From assembly GCA_020186115.1 (NCBI GenBank), contig WSYJ01000099.1, forward strand, positions 310,001 to 374,000: DNA of 64,000 nucleotides, read 5' to 3'. Every line of letters starts with the position of its first letter. Positions within the stretch are counted from its first letter, which is position 1. Positions 1 through 61,390 of the stretch are shown here, piece by piece. Under the pieces are notes generated by a model that was not told the origin of the DNA, did no database searches, and saw only the letters and a list, made by a program, of their open reading frames with translations. This DNA is from Histomonas meleagridis (Eukaryota; Parabasalia; Tritrichomonadida; Dientamoebidae). The position numbers and the translations under genes were made by a program.

Positions 1-2953
1 TGCAGTCATTCTGCTTCTGTTTATATTATTTATATTAATATTTGTTCGTTCTAATATTAATTTTGTTATATCATAATTTTTGGTAATGATTGATAACATT
101 AATGGAGTATTTCCATCTCGATTTTTAATATTTAAATTAATTCCTTCTTTACACAAAAGCATTTCAATTATTTCATAATCATTTTGTTTAAATGCAATTG
201 TTAATGGTGTCTCATCAAAAATATTAGAAGCGTTTATATCAATATCTTGGCGATCCAATAATAATTTAACTATTTCAATATTTCTTAAAGGTGTAACAGA
301 TTGCATTTCCGATTGATATGAACAGTATTGCTTTTGATGTTTAGGAATATAAATTGCACTTATTAATGGCGTCATCCCAATCATATCTGGCGCATTTACA
401 TCAATATCTGGTTGACTTAAAAGTAATTTAAATATTTCAGAATTCCGTTTTTGAATTGCAATGTTTAATGCAGTTAGTCCAACATCGTTTGGAATATTTA
501 CATCAATATCTTTATGATTCAAAAGTAATTGAACGATTTCAATTCTGTTTTGTTGTGTTGCTATTATTAATGGGATTTGGAAATTGGAAATATTACTTGA
601 AAAAAGACCACATTTTTGAATCTCATATAAATAATTTTTGGGATCTAAAGATTGAGGATATTTTGTTGTTGAAATTTTACCATTAACATTAATTCCTTTT
701 TGTTCGAGAAGTAAATGAGTAATGTCATCATGGTTATTTATAATTGACGCAACAAGTGCCGACGATTTTTTTTTTGCTATTAATATTAATTTTGATATCT
801 TTTTGCTTTAGAAGTAATTTAACAATTTTGAAATAACCTTTAGATGATGCATATATTAATGCGGTTTCTTTATATATATTTTGTGCATTTACATCAATTT
901 CTATTTGTTGAAGTAATAATTTTGCAATGTCATAATACCCTTTATGACAGCAATATATTAATGGCGTATTCCCATTTTTATCAGGAGTATTAACATCGAT
1001 ATTTGGTAATGTTAAAACATATGAAACAAGTTCAATATTATTAGATACAACTGAAAATGGTAATGTTTCTGTTGGAATATTTTGATACTTTTTAAGAAGA
1101 TATTTAACAAGATACATATTACCATTCGTGGCTGCCGCTTGTATAAATTTGTTATTGGACTCAAAATTCTCTTCTTTTTCTAAATATAAGAAAATATCAT
1201 AATTGTAATGTTTAATACATGCAACAGCAAGAAGTTCTCTTTCGGAAGAAGTTTTAGATTGGCCTAATGAATTGATATCGTTTTCAATTATATGTGATCT
1301 TGCATGTTTTTTCGCAAATCGTATTGAATTGGAATCAAAATGATCTAATACATTAAATCCTGGCTTAAATCCTGTTGAAGTAGATTCACTTGGAGCATTA
1401 AATCCTGGCTTAAATCCTGCTGATGTAGATGAAGTAGTTGAAGCAGGTGGAATATTAAATCCTGGCTTAAATCCTGTTGAAGTAGATGAAGTAGTTGAAG
1501 CAGGTGGAATATTAAATCCTGGTTTAAATCCTGTTGAAGTAGATGAAGTAGTTGAAGCAGGTGGAATATTAAATCCTGGTTTAAATCCTGTTGAAGTAGA
1601 TGAAGTAGTTGAAGCAGGTGGAATATTAAATCCTGGCTTAAATCCTGTTGAAGTAGTTGAAGCAGGTGGAATATTAAATCCTGGTTTAAATCCTGTTGAA
1701 GCAGATTCACTTGGAACATTAAATCCTGGTTTAAATCCTGGTTTAAATCCTGTTGAAACAGATTCACTTGGAACATTAAATCCTGGTTTAAATCCTGTTG
1801 AAACAGATTCACTTGTAACATTAAATCCTGGTTTAAATCCTGTTGAAACAGATTCACTTGGAGCATTAAATCCTGGTTTAAATCCTGTTGAAGCAGATTC
1901 ACTTGGAACATTAAATCCTGTTGAAGCAGCTGAGTTTTCTGATTTCATTTCAAAGGTTTCATTTTGTTGGATACCGAAACTTACACCATTTATGTTAAAT
2001 GAGCCATTGCTCTTTTGGTTTTCATAAAGATAAACAAAAATATCATTTCTATTATATTTAATTGCAGTTTGATAAGCCATTTTTAAATTCTTTGCATTAT
2101 CATCAATTCTTTGCATACAAAGATGAAATATTTCGACATTTCCTCCTGCAATTGCATATAGTAAAACATTATCTAAGTCAGAACCATTCAACATTAAAAA
2201 TTTGAAACATTTGATTGATCCATAAAATGCTGCATATTGAATGAGAGTAACAGGATTATCGCAAAGTTCAGAATACCTTTCGTACTCTGAATGTTTAATT
2301 ATTCTATTAAACTTAAAATCGGGTTGTGATGAGATTTCTTGGAGCCGATCAATATCATCAATTCGAATTACTTTGGCAATTTCTACTGGATTGTATCCAT
2401 CATGCGCATATTTTTTATGAAGTTTAAAGTCATCTTTTTGAAGATCTGAGTTGAAATCAAAAAGTTCATGGGGATTAAAAACACATGATACTCTTGAAGC
2501 TGTTTCGATTCGACGAACATTCGTCCGATTTTGAGGTATCGGTTTTAAGTGAATAAAATAATGAGATTCTATATTTGAAACAAAATCTGACTCAATTAGA
2601 TTTTCTTCCAACATACGGAAAAGAATATAGTTTGTTTCTCTTTCGCCGTTTAGGAGAAGAAAATGACCAAACATTTTGAAGATTTCTAGGCTTTCATTGA
2701 ATTGTTTTTCTTTAGTTTCAACTGATTTTAAATAGAGAAAATACAAATCAATTTCCTTCCTTTGTGAGAGAAAAGATGAATATATAGCTTCAAAAAGAAT
2801 AATATTAAAAGAATTTTGAGAATTTATTTCAAAAAAATTCATTGTTGCTTGAATAATATTTTCAATATTTTCTTTTTCAAGTTGGAAGACAATGTTTTTT
2901 ATTGACTGCACATAATCAATTTCTTGTTGATGGTTTTCTAGAGTTGCTTCCAT
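1..2953 (-). pseudogene. DUF3447/ankyrin-repeat protein, frameshifted and running off the window
   Basis: The ATG is at 2953. Residues 1-340 are the N-terminal DUF3447-type module shared with the genes at 8494-11156 and 44926-46963 (similar stretches around YNPVEIAKVIR and LQEISSQ). Residues ~345-545 are a low-complexity insert with 11 GFKPGFN motifs. Ankyrin repeats follow (KNGNTPLIYCC, KETALIYASSKG). The long frame stops at 734-736. Downstream of a 10-T run at 766-775 (A10 on the sense strand), a +1 frame stays open to base 1 and encodes at least six more ankyrin-like units. One base too many in the run therefore explains the break. It is either a real pseudogene lesion or a homopolymer sequencing error. 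The true 3' end lies outside the window. Ankyrin arrays act as protein-binding scaffolds; the partner is unknown. No spacers interrupt the repeats here, unlike in the two paralogues. Confidence 0.8.
1345..1930 (-). repeat. In-frame minisatellite encoding GFKPGFN repeats
   Basis: Tandem units of about 45-54 bp inside the ankyrin gene each encode GFKPGFN followed by either a PSES(A/V)ST spacer or an IPPASTTS(STS)T spacer. Eleven GFKPGFN motifs are readable. Five adjacent copies carry the IPP-type spacer and are almost identical, which implies recent unit expansion. The array sits between the DUF3447 module and the ankyrin repeats, where the two paralogues have no counterpart. Unit length is always a multiple of 3, so the frame is kept and other frames also stay open. 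Confidence 0.9.
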
Positions 2954-7117: not shown

Positions 7118-8149
7118 ATGTTCATCAATAATTTAACATTAATTCACTTATCAGTGACGAATTCCTTTTCTCAGTCACCTTTGATCGCAGGGAAATTTAA
7201 ATCAGTAGCAATAATAAATTCCAAATTTTTGAAATCATTTCATCAATTACTATATGGTTCATCATTTGGCCATCTAAACCTTGATAAGTCATGTTTTTAT
7301 TATTTCTTAAGCTCTTTAATTCAGACTTCATCAATTCAAAGTATAAACTTAAAAGTCTATAAATCAGACCTTCCTACTTATACAGACGATGATATTGAAA
7401 TTTCAAATTGTTTATTCACCAAGATTATTTTAATTGATTTTCTTGTATCAATAAATGCAAAACTAACAATAATTAATTCCAATTTTTTTGACATTTCTAG
7501 TTCTACTTCTTCTATATTGTTTCAATCATCTGCAAATACTATTAGAGATTGTACCTTTAGGTATATTTATACAAGAATATATACAAGTTCAATTACACTT
7601 ACAAATGTCTCTGTATGTGAAAGCACTTTAATTTCTCAATGTCAAATTCCTGATGAAGCATTTAATCCAATTCATATTCTATCATATGTAAATATCACAA
7701 ACAACAAAATCAATAAATTTTTTGGATGTGTAGAAAATGATTTTTCGTATTCAGCTATATATCATTTTAAACAAATATTAACTGAAAATAATAATTTCGA
7801 TAGTTATTTATTCTTTTGTTACATGAAAAGAAATGAAATTAATATAATAAATTCTGTTTTTATAAATAACAATGGAATAATTTGTGATTCATCTTTGAGA
7901 GGGTTATTGGGCTTTAAAGATTTTGTAATACAAAATTCTTGTTTAAGTAATGTAACTGTTCAACCATCAAATTCAAAAGCAGTAAAATTAATAAAATGCG
8001 CAATCGATGAATCTATAACCAATGCGGACATTGAAGAGTGCACGAATGGAGAGAAATGTCCAATTTTGGATGAATCAATCCAAGAAGAAATATTGGCATT
8101 TGATTATGGTATAATAGGTGATGAAATCATGGAATTTAAAATTGCTTGA
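7118..8149 (+). CDS. Putative right-handed beta-helix (Pmp-like) protein
   Basis: 343 residues, rich in N, S, I, F and short strands of the type (I/L)xIxNSxFxx: VAIINSKFLKS, LTIINSNFFDIS, INIINSVFINN, FVIQNSCLSN. This periodicity is typical of parallel beta-helix proteins, including the large trichomonad families annotated as polymorphic-outer-membrane-protein-like. No signal peptide or transmembrane helix is apparent, although surface members of this family usually have both. It may therefore be a short intracellular or truncated member. The start is fixed by an Inr five bases upstream. The stop is TGA. No function can be stated beyond the fold guess. Confidence 0.55.
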   Translation: MFINNLTLIHLSVTNSFSQSPLIAGKFKSVAIINSKFLKSFHQLLYGSSFGHLNLDKSCFYYFLSSLIQTSSIQSINLKVYKSDLPTYTDDDIEISNCLFTKIILIDFLVSINAKLTIINSNFFDISSSTSSILFQSSANTIRDCTFRYIYTRIYTSSITLTNVSVCESTLISQCQIPDEAFNPIHILSYVNITNNKINKFFGCVENDFSYSAIYHFKQILTENNNFDSYLFFCYMKRNEINIINSVFINNNGIICDSSLRGLLGFKDFVIQNSCLSNVTVQPSNSKAVKLIKCAIDESITNADIEECTNGEKCPILDESIQEEILAFDYGIIGDEIMEFKIA

Positions 8150-8493: not shown

Positions 8494-11156
8494 TTAATTA
8501 TTTTTTGCCATGTGTTCTTTAGAATACGATTGAAGCAATTTTACAATTTCAGTGTGACCTTTTTCTGTTGCATACATAAGTGCTGTTCGAAGTAAATTAA
8601 ATAAATTCCAAATATTATTTTGAAGCTTTAAATTACAAAAATTAACTTTATTTACCAAAGGATATTTTTGTAGTGGATATTAATATTATCTTTTTCAAGA
8701 AGTAATTTTACTATTTCGATATAACCACCTCCTGCTGCATTGACAAGTGGTGCAAAAATAAGGAATAAACTCCAAATATTGTTTTGAAATATATAATCTT
8801 AATAAACATTTTTAACATTAATGTTGATTCCTTCTTTTCCTAGAAGTAATTTAACTATCTCAGTAAAACCAAATTTTGTTGCGATAATAAGTGCTGATAA
8901 TAAAATGAATAAACTCCAAATATTGTTTTGAATTATATAATACGAATAAACATTTCTAGCATTAACATCAATATTATCTTTTTCAAGAAGTAATTGAACT
9001 ATTTCTTTATGACCCTTTGAGACTGCCCAAATTAGTGCTGTCCTAATTAATTTGAATAATTTCCAAATATTTTTATGTAACAAGAAATTATTGAAACAAA
9101 TATCAAACAAAATAAATTTATATCTTTGGCATTAATATCAATATCTTTTTGTTCAAGAAGTAATTTTACTATATCTTTAAAACCATTATGTGATGCAACT
9201 GTAAGTGATGTCCATAACTATTTAAGTAATTAACTTATAAATTTTTTAAACTCTAAATGATTAAAACAATTATTATATTGAACGAATAAATATCTTTGGT
9301 ATTAATATCAATTCCTTCTTGTTCAAGAAGTAATTTAACGATTTCTGGGTGATCAAATCTAACTGCATTCGAAAGGGCAGTATCATAAAATCAAAATAAT
9401 TTTTAATAATTATTATTAAATCCAAAATCATTGAAACAATCATTAAACAAAATGAATAAAAATTTTTAGCATTTATATCAATTCCTTTTTGTTCAAGAAG
9501 CAATTTAACTGCTTCAGTATTACCATGATATGATGCAAACATAAGTGCTGTACTATATATTTCGAATAATTTCCAAATAATATCAAAAAATGCCAAACGA
9601 TATAAACAAAAATCAAATAAATAAAATGAATCCTAAATAAAACAAATAAATATTTTTAGCATTAATATCAACATTTTCGTGTTCAAGAAGTAATTTAATA
9701 ACATTAGCATGTCCAGATGAAGAAGCAAACATAAGAGCTGTGTTAAATATTACAAATAATTTCCAAATATTATATATAAATCCAAAAACATTAAAACAAA
9801 CACTAAACAAAACATATGAATATTTCTAGCATTAATATCAATTTCTTTTTGTTCAAGAAGTAATTTGACCATTTCCTCATTTCCATTTTCAGATGCTATC
9901 ATAAGTGCTGTATTAAATATATTAAAGAATTTCCAAATATTATTTTAAAATTAGAAAAAATTGGAACAAAATTTATTTTTAGAATTAATATCAATTCCTT
10001 TTTGTTCTAATATATATTTAACAAGTTCAATATTACCTATTTCAGATGAGAAAACCAAAATATCTTTTGGAATAGGATTTCCTTTAAGGAAATATTTAAT
10101 CAAATATAAATTTCCAACTTTTGATGCTTCATTAATAATAGATTCATTAATTTTCATTCCAATCTCATGTAGGAATGCAAAAATATCATAGTTATGATGA
10201 ATAATACATTTCCTTCCTAATTCTTCCAAATTATTAATTTCAACAATTTTGTTTTCATAAAGATAATGAAAGACATCATTTCGATGGAATTCAATTGCTG
10301 TTTCATATGCATCTTCAAATTTAGCATGATTTTGTTCACATAAATGAATTATCTCTAAATTCCCACCAGCAATAGCATATTTACCAGTGGACAATAATTC
10401 GATATCGTTCATTAATAAAAATTTAAAACATTTAACTGCCCCAAAAAATGCAGCATAATCAATAAGTGCATTATTATTTTGATTAATGAATGAACATCTT
10501 TCATAAATTGAAGGTTGAATTTGATGATCAAAATTAAAATTCGTTTGAGATGATATTTCTTGAAGTTTTTCAATATTATCAGTACGTATTACTTTTACTA
10601 TTTCATTTGGATTAACTCCTTCTTGTGCTAATTCTTTCTGATGTTTCCAATTGTCTTTTTGGAGTTCTTCGATATTTTTGTAAAAGTAATTATCATATTG
10701 ACAATTTTTATAATCTTGTTCTGACAAATAGTGTGCAAAATATAAATTGTTTATATTTTTTACAACTTCTTCTTTGATTAAACCTTCTCTAATCATAGTT
10801 TCAAGAAAATAAAACGATTCTTGTGTTTTCTTTCTATGAAGAAAATGTGCTAAAATATCAATTAATTTATATTTGCATTGATTCTTTTCTTCAAATGTTT
10901 TAAATTCTTTTAAGAAATTTAAATACTTATCAACTTCATTTGGAGAAATTTCAATTGAACAATATATTATCTGACTAATGACTAAATAAAAAGAATATGT
11001 ATTAGCAAAATCAAAGATATCGATAATTGATTGAACTGTTCTCGAAATTTTATCCTTATCCATTCCAAAGACATTTTGTCCGATTAATTGAAGTATTTCC
11101 CATTCACTTAAATTTTGTTTTTGAACTGGTTCATTTGGATTATTATGTTCTTCCAT
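8494..11156 (-). CDS. DUF3447/ankyrin protein with nine spacer-interrupted repeats
   Basis: The first open segment (11156 to 9951; ATG 11156) encodes 401 residues: the DUF3447-type N-terminal module, then ankyrin-like units (LIDYAAFFGAVKCFKFLL, ELVKYILEQKGIDINSKN). Downstream, nine further ankyrin units follow in order, each starting T/S/A-A-L and ending near INAKN. The last one reads TALMYATEKGHTEIVKLLQS and closes with a proper stop at 8496-8494. Between units lie homologous spacers: 9912-9974 (63 nt), 9742-9821 (80), 9552-9651 (100), 9382-9461 (80), 9212-9291 (80), 9042-9121 (80), 8898-8951 (54), 8754-8807 (54), 8587-8663 (77). All nine units are free of stops and frameshifts; nearly all spacers are not. 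I treat 8494-11156 as one gene whose spacers are removed or bypassed. If they are not, the product is the 401-residue form ending at 9951. Confidence 0.6.
8587..9974 (-). repeat. Tandem 170-bp ankyrin unit + AT-rich spacer array (intron-like)
   Basis: Each unit is a 90-nt ankyrin exon-like segment plus a spacer. Four spacers are exactly 80 nt, giving a 170-bp period; one is 100, two are 54, one 63 and one 77. Spacers share a start like ATTTATT(T/C)GT and a core near AATATTTGGAAATTATT about 20-30 nt before the next unit. None shows GTATGT or ACTAACACACAG, the known Trichomonas splice signals. Confidence 0.8.
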
Positions 11157-20984: not shown

Positions 20985-23900
20985 GTGGATCCATTTATTA
21001 ATATACTTTCTCTCCATATTACTTCCTTAACGTTAACGGATAAGGAAGTAAAAAAAATATACAATTCAGTTAAATTTCCAAATATTTCATCAAATGAAAT
21101 TGAAAAGGTTCAATTACGCCTTTCTAGAGGATTCACATATAGCCAATCAATGTGCGATATTGATTTTTGTTTTCCTTATGATTCTACTTCGTTACGTGTT
21201 ATTTGCAATTGTAAAAAAGATTCTTCTTCAATAATTTCATTTTCAACAATGTACATATTGTATTCATATGTTGCATTTATTCTTTCAACAGAAAAAGATC
21301 TAACTTTTTTTCATAAAGAAAATTTATTAATGTTTGAATCATTAGTTGAAATAGTCAATTATTCTCCTTTAGCCAATAATACAATTAACCAACATCTAAC
21401 GCAAGTCATTAAATCTGGTCTTTTTCATCAAGCTCATTTTTCGATTTTTGAACGTTATCTCAAGATTAACAAAACACTTGACCAAAAGTGTTTAAAAATT
21501 TTTATTTTACTTTTCGATTTTTTTATTACAAAAGACGAACAATTTTCTGATTCTATTCTTTCACTTCTTTGTTATACATTAAAGCATAATTCGAATCTTT
21601 GTGTTAGTTCATTTGGAACGAAAATTATTATTTCGATCAAATCATTCCTTATAAAATCAAATATTAACGCAATTAAAGCGCTTAAATATTTGAAGAAATC
21701 AATTAATTGTAAATATTTAATGGATTTAATTCCATTAATATTAAAATCAACAATTAATATATTAATAAATTTAAAAGATCCAATAATTTCTATCAATATG
21801 AAAAAAGAAGAAATTATTACGGTTGAAAAACTTCCAAATAAATTAGAACCTATTTACAAATTTAATGAAATTAATGTATTCCAAAATGGGTTTAAAGTTA
21901 ACGATAAACAATTTTTACCAGAAACGATATCACTTTTTGAAAAGCTTCAAATAAATTCAATATCAAAACGATTAAAAATCATTCAAAGGATTTCTTTAGC
22001 TTTTGAAGAAACAATTACATTATTTTATCAAACATTTTCAGATATTATACGTTTCGCACGTGATAATCGACGACTAGATATGATATTATCTTTTTTATAT
22101 ACGTTAAATTTACTTGATAGCAAACATTATAAATCGGTTAAATCACTTTCACGATTTTTATATTCTGATACATTATTTAATCCACAATATATATGTCAAT
22201 CTGAAGATATTAATTCATATGAATTAAATTCTTTAAGGTCGATTGCGTTTTCATTTATATTAAAAGGTAATGAAAAATCATTAAATGACGAAATCATAAA
22301 ATTTTGTTCATATCCAAAGTTATTAAATGAATTATTATATCGATGTAACAATGAAATTGAGTCAATAATCAAATTAATTAATCCGACTTTAATTAATACA
22401 TTCACACGTATTTCATTATATTATCAAAAATTATCATATGAAAACATCACTTATTCGAGTAATGTTCGAATTGTTTTATTTTTATTATTTTCGAATCTTT
22501 TTATTGATGATTCAATAGAAAATTCATTTTTTTCAAACGAATATTTCACAAATACTTTTTTTTCTTTTCTTTATGAAGAACAAATCCAAAATTATATACT
22601 TCATCAATTACAAAAGTTATTATCAAAAGATTTAAATCCAGAAATAATATGTAAATCGTTAACGAAAATAATTAATTCATATAATGAATTTACAAATTCG
22701 AAATATATTTCGTTATTAAATTCGATTATTAATATATTAAATGAAATAATTCCACATTATAATATAAATTTAAATTATTTTAATGATATAACAAAAGGAA
22801 TTTTGAATTCATTAACATTACTAAATAATAATTCGAATGAAAATCAAAAATATTTATTAAATTGTTTACAATATTTATCAAATGTTTCGAATTCTTTTCA
22901 TTTATTAAAATCTGATTCAATAATAATATGTAATTCGATCATTAAAACATTTAATAATTCACCAACAAAAGAATTATTTCCGAAATTAATACAAATAATA
23001 TCAAATAATGATAACACATTTAATAATTCATCGAATTTCATCATTCAACAAGAAGAAGTTATACCAATTCTCTATATCATATATAAGAACACTAAATATA
23101 TATATAAAATACTTGATTTCATTAAATTAATTTGTAAGTTTTCTATTCATAATTCAATGTTATGTCATAAAAATGGTTTTGATTTACTTTTATTAACAGA
23201 TCTAATAAAAAATTGGTTTAATAATTTAATTGATTCTAAAATCGTTACAAAAATATTTGAAATTTTTTATATAATTTCGATTTGTTCATCAGAAGAAGTT
23301 ATTGTAACAAATTTTTCATCATTATTATATCCAATAGAAAACGAATGTTTTTCATCACATTTTAATATTGCTTTAGATTGCTTAAAGAGAATAATTTTAA
23401 CAACATTAAGATCACCATCGAATTATATAATTTTAACAAAAGATATTTTCACTACATATAATGATATTAATATTGAAAATGGTTTTACTTTTATGTGTTG
23501 GATTCGATTTGAAACGTTTAATTCACAAAATGAAACAATTTTATTTAAAATGATTAATAATAATAATCCGAAACATTATTTAAAAATTAGTTTTTCATTA
23601 AATTATTTAAACTATTTTCAAAAGACTTCAAAAACGGAATCAAATTTCAAATATAAAATGAGTAATAACATTAATGAATGGTCAATATTAACGATATCAT
23701 ATGATAATAATCAAATCGAAATCATATTAAATAATGAAGAACCAATTAAATATGAATTACCAAAAATATCAAATTTTAATAATGAAAATGTTCAATTTGT
23801 TTTCGGTGGAATAGAAAATGATATAACAAATTCATCATCAATTTTAATTGGATCTTTTTCTTTATTTCATTTTATAGAAACAAATCAAATAATTTCATAT

Positions 23901-38103: not shown

Positions 38104-38314
38104 TATATTGTTAAATTACTTCTTGAACAATAAGGAATTGATATTAATGCTAAAGACATTTACTAGTTTTATGATTGATATGAATTTTAATAATTTAACA
38201 TTTTAAAATAATATTCGGAATTTATTTAAAGTATTTAAAACAGCATTGATGCATGCATATAACTATAATCATGAAGAAATAAAAAAGTTACTTGAGGAAA
38301 AAAATAATAAATAA
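38104..38314 (+). pseudogene. Ankyrin-repeat exon remnant with spacer
   Basis: 38107-38157 encodes IVKLLLEQ-stop-GIDINAKD (the normal Lys codon is TAA). It is followed by an 82-nt spacer (38158-38239) of the same family as in the ankyrin genes, then a terminal unit TALMHAYNYNHEEIKKLLEE and stop (38312-38314). It is an isolated 3' end of a spacer-interrupted ankyrin gene with no 5' part nearby. Confidence 0.75.
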
Positions 38315-44925: not shown

Positions 44926-46963
44926 ATGATAAACAAGAGCATTCCAAACAACGTTACCACTTCAAATGAACTTGAAAGAAAAGATAAATCACCTATACAA
45001 GGATCAAATAGCATGGAAACATTGAAATCACTTCAACAAATCATATTCAACTTAAATAAAAAAACTCTTGATAAAGCAGTTCAACAAACAATGGAATTAT
45101 ACGATCAAAATTTTCCATATTCATATAATTTTATAATAAGCAACATGCTATTCACTATGTTTTGCATACAATTTAATTCAGGTGATTTATTATTAAATTA
45201 TTTAAAATCTATTCAATCAAAAGAAGAAGAAATAAAAATTAAACCCAAAATAATTAAAATTTTTAGTGAATATCTATGTAAAGACAAATCCAAAGAATCA
45301 TATTATTTAATTGAGAAAATGATAGAACAAAATTTACTTGATAAAAGCATTACTAAAAATCTTCAATCAGACTATTTTGTGCATTATAAAACAAACCCTG
45401 ATATCGTTAATAAATTTGGAGAACTTTCAAAGAATGATTGGGCACTTCATAAGCAATTAATCAAAGAAGGGCATAATCCGAATGAAATTGCGAAAATTCT
45501 TCGAAATGATGAAATCGAAAAACTTCAAGAAATATCATCACAAAATGATTTTAATTATAATCAAACAATTGAACCATCACCTTATGAAAGATGTTCATTT
45601 ATTAATCAAGAAAATGTTACATTAATTGATTATGCAGCGTTTTTTGGATCAATTAAATGTTTTAAATATTTACTTATGAACAACGCAAACGTTGAAGATA
45701 CAGGTAAATATGCAGTTGCAGGTGGAAATATAGAAATCATTCATTTGTGTGAACAAAATCATTCGTCATTTGAAAATGCATATGAAACAGCAATTAAATT
45801 TCATCGAAATAATATCTTTAAATATCTTTATGAAAATAAGTTAGAAAATTTGCCTGCAGAATTTGGTGAAAATAAAAACAAAAAATTTAATTATTTAGGA
45901 AATAATTGTATATCATGTGATAATTATGAAATTTTCTGCTTTTTAGAAGCAGAAGGAATTAAAGACTATAAATATATTATTAATTATGTGGCATGTAAAG
46001 GAAATTTACTTCTAGTAAAGTATTTCCTTGAAAATAACTTAACTACAAAAGAAATTTTGATATCATCATCAATATCAGGAAATATTGAACTTGTTAAATA
46101 TCTTCTTGAACAAGAAGGAATTGATATTAACACTAAAAATATTTATTTGTTTTATTTGAAATTTATTTTAATATTTTTGGATAACAAAATAATATTTGGA
46201 AATTATATAAATTATTTAAAACATCACTTATGATAGCATCTGCAAAAGGTCATACAGAAATAGTTAAATTACTCCTTGAACAAAAAGGAATTGATATTAA
46301 TGCCAAAGATATATATTTGTTTTATTTGAAATTTATTTTAATAATTTAGAATTTCAAAATAATATTTGGAAATTATTTAAATTATTTAATACAGCACTTA
46401 TTAGAGCATCTGATGAAGGTTATACAGAAATTGTTAAATTACTTCTTGAACAAAAAGGAATTGATATTAATGCTAAAGATATAAATTTGTTTTAATTTGT
46501 ATTTATTTTAATAATTTTATGTTTCAAAATAATATTTGAAAATTATTTAAATTATTTCAAACAGCACTTATAAAGTCGTCATGGAATGGTCATACAGAAA
46601 TAGTTAAAATACTTCTTGAACAAAAAGGAATTAAAATTAATGATAAAGATATTTATTTGTTTTATTTTATATTTGATTTTAGATTTCAGAATTTCAATAT
46701 AAAATTCGGAATACATTTAAATTATTTAAAACAGCTCTTATGTGGGCATCTGATTGCAATTGTATTGACGTAGTTAAATTATTTATTGAACACAATGAAA
46801 TCGATATCAACGCAAAAGATATTAGTTTATTTTAACTATTGTTTACTTTAATAAAATTATGTTTCAATTTAAAATTTGGAAATGATTCATATTATTTCGA
46901 ACTGCATTTATTTTTGCACAACTTAGAGGTAACACGGATATTGCTATATTACTTCAAAAATAA
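44926..46963 (+). CDS. DUF3447/ankyrin protein with five spacer-interrupted repeats
   Basis: A paralogue of the gene at 8494-11156. The first open segment (44926-46140) encodes a DUF3447-type module (HNPNEIAKILRNDEIEKLQEISSQ; YERCSFINQENVTLIDYAAFFGSIKCFKYLL) and ankyrin-like units. After NTKN, five spacers of exactly 80 nt follow (46141-46220, 46311-46390, 46481-46560, 46651-46730, 46821-46900) at a constant 170-nt period. Each is followed by an intact ankyrin unit: TSLMIASAKGH, TALIRASDEGY, TALIKSSWNGH, TALMWASDCNC, TAFIFAQLRGN. The last ends AILLQK with stop at 46961-46963. Without spacer removal, translation stops at 46233 inside the first spaced unit. ATG 44926; no clear initiator. Confidence 0.62.
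46141..46900 (+). repeat. Five 170-bp units: 80-nt intron-like spacer + ankyrin segment
   Basis: The spacers are homologous to each other and to those at 8587-9974. All five are 80 nt. Four start with AT(T/A)(T/A)ATTTGT. A hairpin AAATAAT / ATTATTT with loop ATTTGGAA is perfect in the second spacer and nearly so in others. Stop codons or frame breaks occur in every spacer, none in the ankyrin segments. Confidence 0.85.
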
Positions 46964-60642: not shown

Positions 60643-61390
60643 GTGTGTTTTCGTGTTGAAATTGATCGTTTTGGATTGAGGGAGAAACTTCAACTTCTCG
60701 AACAAATAATTTTTGGTTTGGATAAAGGAAAAATTACACAATCAGCACAATTAATTACCGATATGATTGATTTAAAATATCCATATTCTTTTAATCTTAT
60801 TATTACAAGAATGCTTTGGGTTTCAATTAATATTTATTATTTAAAATAAAATTTTGAAAAATATTAATTTGGAAAAATTCGGAATTAAATGTATAAAATA
60901 TTGCAATTATGAAATTTTAACATTTTTGCAAAAAGAAGGAATAAAAATCAATCAAATTATAAATATAACAGCAAAATATGGAAACTTATATCTTGTTAAA
61001 TGTTTTCTTAAAATCTGTCAATATCCATATGAGATTTTAAATTTTTCCACGGGATCAGAAAATTATGAGCTTGTTAAATATATATTAAAACAAAATGGAA
61101 TTGATATAAATTCTATAGATATTTATTTGTTTTAATTTATGTTTGTTTTAATGATTAAATATTTGAAAATAATATTTAGAAATTATTTAAAATATTCGAA
61201 ACGGCACTTATGTATGCATCTAAAAAAGATTATACTGAAATAGTTAAATAACTTCTTGTGCAAGAAGGAATTGATATAAATGCTAAAAATAAAATTCATT
61301 TTAAATATTTTATGTTTTAAAATAATATTTGAAAATTATTTGAATTATTTAATACAGCACTTATATTAGCATCTAGATATGGTTACATGT
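60643..61390 (+). pseudogene. Truncated DUF3447/ankyrin pseudogene with spacers
   Basis: 60690-60830 encodes LEQIIFGLDKGKITQSAQLITDMID, homologous to the N-terminus of the gene at 44926. The middle of the module is deleted, with a stop at 60847. 60860-61120 encodes the later part (IKCIKYCNYEILTFLQKEGIK; NYELVKYILKQNGIDIN). Spacer 61121-61200 (80 nt) is followed by a unit with an in-frame TAA (IVK-stop-LLVQEGIDINAKN), then spacer 61291-61353 (63 nt) and a unit that breaks off at 61390, where the duplicated BTB/B55 segment begins. It has clearly decayed, in contrast to the two intact paralogues. Confidence 0.85.

Follow-up and report, generated by a model that had tools for sequence, protein, structure and literature searches.

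How is a gene read when, after an uninterrupted head, its coding sequence is broken by one short segment after another that stops or shifts the frame? The question is raised by an ankyrin gene in the window, the term used here for the whole 64,000-nt stretch of Histomonas meleagridis DNA that was analysed (contig C57:310001-374000). Genome searches were made over 43,276,120 bases in 121 contigs. The virulent H. meleagridis assembly is given as 187 contigs and 43,414,808 bases in the accessible portion of PMC8529796; small contigs may be absent from the 121-contig set, with totals slightly below the published ones.

Two interrupted ankyrin genes

The gene in question (gene 1), a second gene of the same pattern (gene 2) and two relic copies are laid out below. 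An array is a spacer made up of 17-mers (elements) and single codons (slots).

8494-11156, minus strand: gene 1, whole
9975..11156, minus: head, uninterrupted coding sequence with DUF3447 (PF11929) and the first ankyrin half-repeat
9912..9974, minus: array 1, 63 nt, codon AAA then 3 x (17-mer + codon); slots K-L-G-N
9742..9821, minus: array 2, 80 nt, 4 x (17-mer + codon); slots S-W-G-N
9552..9651, minus: array 3, 100 nt, 5 x (17-mer + codon); slots R-D-G-G-S
9382..9461, minus: array 4, 80 nt, 4 x (17-mer + codon); slots N-W-K-D
9212..9291, minus: array 5, 80 nt, 4 x (17-mer + codon); slots N-R-V-W
9042..9121, minus: array 6, 80 nt, 4 x (17-mer + codon); slots D-L-G-R
8898..8951, minus: array 7, 54 nt, 3 x 17 + 1 codon; slot G (parse chosen by hand)
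8754..8807, minus: array 8, 54 nt, 3 x 17 + 1 codon; slot G (parse chosen by hand)
8587..8663, minus: array 9, 77 nt, 4 x 17 + 3 codons; slots V-G-R (parse chosen by hand)
8494..8586, minus: last ankyrin unit, with a normal stop codon
44926-46963, plus strand: gene 2, whole
44926..46140, plus: head, uninterrupted coding sequence with ankyrin matches
46141..46220, plus: array, 80 nt, 4 x (17-mer + codon); slots E-W-G-K
46311..46390, plus: array, 80 nt; slots E-R-G-N
46481..46560, plus: array, 80 nt; slots C-Y-E-Q
46651..46730, plus: array, 80 nt; slots Y-R-G-K
46821..46900, plus: array, 80 nt; slots I-Y-G-R
46901..46963, plus: last ankyrin unit, with a normal stop codon
61121..61353, plus: relic copy, one unit holding TAA and flanked by arrays of 80 and 63 nt; only head fragments upstream
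38158..38239, plus: relic copy, one off-grammar 82-nt array next to an ankyrin unit

The head of gene 1 terminates ...INSKN, directly before the first array. The DUF3447 score of the gene 2 head was 26.8 bits, just under the curated cut-off of 26.9. Successive units lie 153, 170, 190, 170, 170, 170, 144, 144 and 167 nt apart in gene 1 and 170 nt apart throughout gene 2, where five 80-nt spacers accompany five intact units; the genes contain 34 and 20 elements, respectively. The initial annotation had described nine open downstream units in gene 1, the last with a normal stop, and nine spacers with the lengths and order given above, and these observations were confirmed. So was its count over both genes, with 14/14 downstream units intact and 13/14 spacers untranslatable in frame. 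The exception, array 7 (8898-8951), has two 17-mers directly adjacent and is the sole spacer among the 14 in the window that is open on read-through.

Gene 1 is adjoined by a 343-aa plus-strand frame (window 7118-8146) with no Pfam match. The minus-strand ankyrin gene at 1-2953, which had been called uninterrupted, proved to be split over two frames (ORFs 734-2953 and 1-522); the break was placed by eye near an A-run (window 734-800) and could be either a sequencing error or real. Between the head and the ankyrin part of that gene are peptide repeats of the GFKPGFN-(V/I)P type (window 1345-1911).

The composition of the spacers

Between ...D-I-N-A-K-D and T-A-L..., the typical spacer is a 17-mer followed by a codon, repeated four times. 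This accounts for lengths of 80 = 4 x (17 + 3), 63 = 80 - 17 and 100 = 5 x 20 nt, up to a maximum of 260 = 13 x 20 nt, with 2-13 elements per spacer outside the window. Spacers differ from one another by 20 nt (element plus codon), 17 nt (element alone) or 3 nt (codon alone). In 28 loci beyond the window, taken from ankyrin matches, unit-to-unit distances formed a ladder of 20-nt steps at 170 (58 times), 150 (31), 130 (5) and 190 nt (1), and a second at 147 (14), 167 (6), 187 (4), 207 (2) and 227 nt (4), in addition to 153 nt (25). The ladders reflect the predominance of spacers of n x 20 nt or 63 nt, and stand among many further values due to chance anchor matches.

Two families were distinguished by a short motif. 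Family A uses four position-specific 17-mers, ATTTATTTGTTTTATTT, ATTTATTTTAATAATTT, ATTTCAAAATAATATTT and AATTATTTAAATTATTT, and family B has ATTCATTTGAATAATTT followed by 1-12 copies of ATATGTTTTAATAATTT or near variants, with a codon after each. The G+C content of family A 80-nt spacers is 5.8% in the elements versus 31% in the slots. When parsed as 17-mers and codons only, with no penalty for stops, the sample gave 208 distinct loops with 828 elements; the alternation was not clean everywhere, 12 loops having a low-scoring element and one being unparsable. A whole 17-mer can be absent with the codons kept, either E1 (pattern cececec, 20 loops) or E2 (eccecec, 2 loops), and off-grammar spacers occur beyond the exact-grammar set. 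The arrays probably grow and shrink by a 20-bp minisatellite mechanism.

The spacer can no longer be treated as one insert, as was first supposed, since each one in the window comprises 3-5 separate 17-nt elements, usually with a single codon between neighbours. It had also been proposed that removing 68 nt from an 80-nt spacer restores a four-residue loop. The arithmetic stands, 68 being 4 x 17 and the loop being the isolated codons, but not the notion of a single intron with two boundaries. A model in which each spacer is a single intron whose 3' end is an ACAG within the T-A-L codons was rejected, since ACA TCA, ACT GCC and GCA CCA were found at the same place and the codons inside the spacer are constrained.

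Coding constraint on the isolated codons

In exact-grammar spacers, stop triplets occupied 1 of 544 family A slots against 29.7 expected (137 distinct spacers, 26 locus records), and 1 of 233 family B slots against 25.1 expected (48 distinct spacers, 18 locus records). The expectation was obtained by shuffling the three columns within each position class, the range over 3000 shuffles being 17-43 for A and 16-34 for B. Left out of the counts were spacers of, for example, 45, 54, 57, 59, 68, 69, 71, 73, 81-83 and 86 nt, and two false anchor pairs (260 nt in L042, and window 22224-22443) that accounted for two of the three stops first counted in family A. The loci were picked via ankyrin matches with stops and via pattern matches in one contig, and some records overlap; as the repeats are also paralogous and of common ancestry, the counts are not independent trials and genome-wide extrapolation is rough.

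Both stops are TGA. TAA and TAG are absent from the slots, TAT and TGG are common, and 39 of the 61 sense codons are used. The parse without stop penalty covered 1022 slots and gave 16 stop triplets. Off-grammar spacers, which cannot be parsed by fixed 17-mers, hold 14 of these; the remaining two are the TGAs at L073 and L074. The slots of the window alone (no stops in 50) are a weak test, and the strength lies in the genome-wide sample.

Of 103 distinct 80-nt spacers of family A, 87 have glycine at slot 3 (GGA 81, GGT 4, GGG 2), compared with 2, 3 and 1 at slots 1, 2 and 4, respectively. Slot 1 is mainly K, N, D or E, slot 2 N, D or Y, and slot 4 K, N, E or D; these three slots are more variable than the surrounding elements and slot 3 is not. 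In uninterrupted 12-nt loops, identified with loose anchors in other ankyrin genes of the loci read, glycine was at the equivalent place in 11 of 15. The isolated codons spell the ankyrin hairpin KD-xxGx-TAL, and the elements lie outside the selected reading frame, so that they seem to be absent from what is translated. The weight of the slot evidence comes from its spread across many genes and from the exclusion of exactly the stop triplets.

Ankyrin units

The units of the genome sample, 81, 84, 87, 90 or 93 nt long, were stop-free in 153 of 157 cases and a multiple of three in all 157, in keeping with the earlier view that they resemble selected protein. The two alternative frames contained stops in 145/157 and 157/157. 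L074 holds two of the four stop-bearing units; the others are in L011 and in a relic of the window. Random stops and frameshifts of the kind expected in pseudogenes did not characterise the genes sampled; they were seen in single relics, such as that at window 61121-61353.

Diversity at the three codon positions of the units was 0.22/0.14/0.21, a profile only mildly protein-like overall, with the structural sites of the ankyrin repeat near-invariant. The initial annotation had named a dN/dS near 1 as evidence against its reading, and a crude Nei-Gojobori count in five divergence bins came close to that value at 0.71-0.93. We do not weigh this heavily, given that 94% of third positions are A/T and that the surface sites of ankyrin repeats are strongly variable, but it still counts against that reading.

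Length and sequence of the elements

A length of 17 nt was assigned to 825 of 848 elements by a parser that is biased, having been trained on the same spacers, favouring 17 and using a stop penalty; the exceptions range from 8 to 21 nt and are partly parser artefacts. Twelve of 107 family A 80-nt spacers have at least 16 non-consensus bases among their 68 element positions, with all slots stop-free. In 58 distinct diverged elements no end was invariant, and the tendency RTTT...TTT alone persists.

A divergent gene, L080 (contig C15), came from a protein similarity search, independently of the element pattern. It is the best match of the metagenome protein P0001, at 75%, and P0001 is therefore from another species or lineage. 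The head of L080 is followed by five arrays of exactly 4 x (17 + 3) nt, whose elements differ from the family A consensus at 3-9 of 17 bases. The slots read HNGL, KSGK, RYGK, YYKL and RDGL, with no stop in 20 and the glycines encoded by GGT, GGA, GGG and GGA, and all four units between the five arrays are open. A sixth array is 81 nt long, and a good parse of it needs an 18-nt first element in a T-run. The end of P0001, just past its head, appears to align with the first element of L080.

Arrays of 81 nt in L022, L046, L063, L074 and L080 are readable with one 18-nt element, mostly in T-runs. They could be genuine variants or else homopolymer errors in the long-read assembly, and such errors may explain some of the 18-mers in T-runs. 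Elements of about 8 nt (17 minus 9) were seen in well-reading loops at L019 2727 (by eye), L024 2155 and L027 1862; as the codons of these loops are readable, the length rule is not absolute. On the whole, the length of the elements is more conserved than their sequence.

Splice signals and the host spliceosome

The usual trichomonad intron signals had been noted as missing from the spacers, and this held for the larger sample. None of 317 distinct exact-grammar elements has GT..AG ends (3 end in AG) and none contains CTAAC (7 contain CTAA). Among 337 distinct elements, L080 included, 34 start with GT and 258 end with TT. The combination GTATGT(20-50)ACTAACACACAG had no match in the genome, the trichomonad 3' intron motif ACTAACACACAG was practically absent (3 matches versus 2 for reversed-pattern controls in 43 Mb), and GTATGT..CTAAC..AG gave 67 matches, below the 348 of the reversed control. 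Canonical introns were rejected on these counts. Several single matches of GTATGT..CTAAC..AG, for example C2:301878-301902, resemble type B introns of 22-25 nt. In the accessible text of PMC8529796 the AUGUSTUS models of H. meleagridis contain 573 introns with a maximum of one per gene, and for Tritrichomonas musculus introns in 5.66% of genes are given in that of PMC11978803.

Spliceosome components were found in the host, namely U2 (80.5 bits), U6 (43.7 bits, cut-off 44) and a Prp8 domain in a 2333-aa frame. The U2 retains GUAGUA and the U6 retains ACAGAGA, with no complementarity to the element signals; unchanged U2 and U6 would suit CTAAC-type branch sites, which the elements lack. Translation by a -1 frameshift through each 17-mer was also rejected: of 543 family A modules, 115 have a stop at shift 9 in that frame, by sequence the TAA of E3.

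Extent in the genome and the protein record

The pattern RTDTRTTTTAATAATTT had 4550 exact matches in the genome versus 390 for the reversed pattern, and the E3-GGA-E4 junction 1378 versus none. Pattern recall in the sample was 207/864 elements and 51/169 family A loops, which together with the match counts points to a total on the order of ten thousand elements in several thousand loops, although the sampling was non-random. Eight of nine isolated element-pattern matches in contig C1 were in ankyrin-like sequence by eye, two of them degenerate. At L065 (C1:1070646) there is an exact element-like 17-mer away from any visible ankyrin gene.

The head of gene 1 had at least 113 matches, from 111 scored of 2256 candidates and including a few fragments, and the gene family is put at about 100 genes or more. 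At the head matches, most open frames span about 380-450 aa, a size that fits stopping at the first array, as looked at in the loci read. A protein search with the head, in which products of up to about 700 aa could be returned, found 41 homologous proteins, one of them labelled Histomonas. That protein, P0017 (named caskin), has a different insert, rich in Pro, Asn and Gly. Among the 15 proteins listed as matches, most of the Histomonas-like ENA ones end at or inside array-like sequence. Judging by its letters, P0014 seems to read through one 63-nt array and to end one unit later. In P0007 a single uninterrupted loop precedes the stop. If any of these proteins were transcripts, they would count against splicing.

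A KANK1-labelled ankyrin-repeat protein is among the proteins measured in Histomonas according to the accessible portion of PMC10063853. The 17-nt elements went unreported in the titles and abstract openings of the open-access literature searched, and the main text of PMC8529796 contains neither 'ankyrin' nor 'spliced'.

How the genes may be read

We consider it probable that the elements are removed at the RNA level, as ultra-short non-canonical introns. The 17-nt AT-rich intervening elements, which separate the individual codons of the beta-hairpin loop in the ankyrin repeat, would be cut from the RNA ahead of translation, so joining long 'exons' of about 90 nt, one repeat each, with 'exons' of one codon. 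As every exon would consist of whole codons in phase 0, excision could proceed element by element and in any order, and the skipping of a codon would keep the frame; loop length and sequence may then vary, and the protein would not be lost. The cutting and rejoining of the transcript, like the agent responsible, we infer from the sequence.

RNA excision was put first because frame-perfect coding selection over 34 and 20 elements would be hard to achieve by hopping ribosomes, and because introns of 15-28 nt are known to be excised, as described in the accessible portions of PMC9505925 and PMC12316389. In its favour we count the spacer grammar, the slot constraint, the missing 17-mers, L080, the intact units and the presence of spliceosome components. 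Against it are the lack of GT-AG, CTAAC and invariant ends, the conservation of length rather than ends being unusual for introns, as well as the dN/dS of 0.71-0.93, the published maximum of one intron per gene, the 81-nt L080 array and the off-grammar spacers. Any of the options originally offered, a new spliceosomal class, a non-spliceosomal intron or ribosomal bypassing, may hold, with evidence against ordinary GT-AG splicing and against bypass like that of T4, both of which are disfavoured. A dedicated and perhaps non-spliceosomal machinery, removing or skipping 17-nt units by length at about ten thousand sites per genome, is possible if rather doubtful; the length constraint fits a length-measuring process, and we know of no precedent for removal of that sort.

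The elements might instead stay in the mRNA, with the ribosome jumping 17 nt after each codon. Conservation of length above sequence is what a distance-measured jump would require, and the elements lack splice signals, yet bypassing is unlikely. Genes 1 and 2 would require 34 and 20 jumps, respectively. Take-off and landing codons do not match: the codon before an element was the same as the last three bases of the element in 4 of 428 cases, and the same as the following codon in 33 of 428 against a shuffled mean of 29.3. There was no general RNA folding signal in 25 whole arrays (z averaging -0.71 with an sd of 1.23; a single array reached -5.64), and a few 18-nt and 8-nt elements lie within otherwise readable loops. 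We rate as equally unlikely that the arrays are fossils, once processed and now silent archives or pseudogenes, with only the head of about 400 aa being made. Plain decay in some copies (window 61121-61353; unit stops in L011 and L074), head frames that look as if stopping at the first array, the crude dN/dS and the single Histomonas-labelled homologue all suit this reading; it is opposed by near-zero stops in 777 slots and the lack of frame breaks in 157 units despite high divergence, and by the grammar retained in the strongly diverged L080.

A 20-bp minisatellite that expands and contracts in ankyrin loops, with no processing, would account for family B as head-to-tail 20-nt units in 2-13 copies. 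It leaves unexplained the avoidance of TAA, TAG and TGA, the glycine at slot 3 and arrays that are short by 17 and not 20 nt, and is most improbable. Scarcely credible is an element-free expressed version made by programmed DNA excision (or assembly). The 20 bp of an element plus codon, close to two turns of DNA, would suit a length-measuring DNA enzyme, but the elements are present in the sequenced genome, the uninterrupted loops seen belong to other ankyrin genes, and we know of no double-nucleus biology in Histomonas.

Comparison with known systems

RNA excision of the elements would find partial likenesses elsewhere. The type B introns of trichomonads (23-28 nt) are also ultra-short, T/A-rich and from parabasalid hosts, and part of the family B sequence ATATGTTTTAATAATTT faintly recalls their GTATGT and CTAAC. 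In the accessible part of PMC12316389 they keep GT...CTAAC...AG and occur one per gene, with two in three T. stableri genes; the 17-mers, in contrast, are shorter, have neither AG nor CTAAC, and occur by the tens in each gene. The tiny introns of Stentor coeruleus (15-16 nt) show that removal at such a size exists. Most of them start with GU and end with AG, with a near-fixed position of the branch-point A (PMC9505925, accessible part). Such ends are missing from the 17-mers.

Microexons (3-15 nt) are very short in-frame exons, known from surface loops and flanked by ordinary introns, whereas the one-codon exons proposed here would come in runs, alternating with 17-nt elements. They are described as single short exons in the accessible part of PMC13149111. 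The non-canonical introns and introners of Amoebophrya, many without GT-AG and partly a repeated family, are similar in those respects; the introner class there bears inverted and direct repeats (PMC7789003, accessible part). No such structure stood out in the folding of the 25 arrays. Translational bypass in phage T4 gene 60 and in mitochondrial byp elements likewise leaves an untranslated stretch within a reading frame. Matching take-off and landing codons are a feature of those systems, unlike the present arrays, which would also need tens of jumps per gene.

Implications

If spliced, the elements would be among the shortest introns known, present in thousands, without GT-AG and with one-codon exons between them, and would provide a stress test of how the spliceosome, or another agent, locates its sites. 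Were the elements instead passed over during translation, the bypass system would be far larger than those known to us. If removal measured by length is true, partial removal of modules would be frame-safe, and one gene could give many variants of the ankyrin loop. In either case, the public protein set of this poultry pathogen may lack most of a gene family numbering about 100 or more, and a proteome search made without the 17 + 3 rule would miss much of each product.
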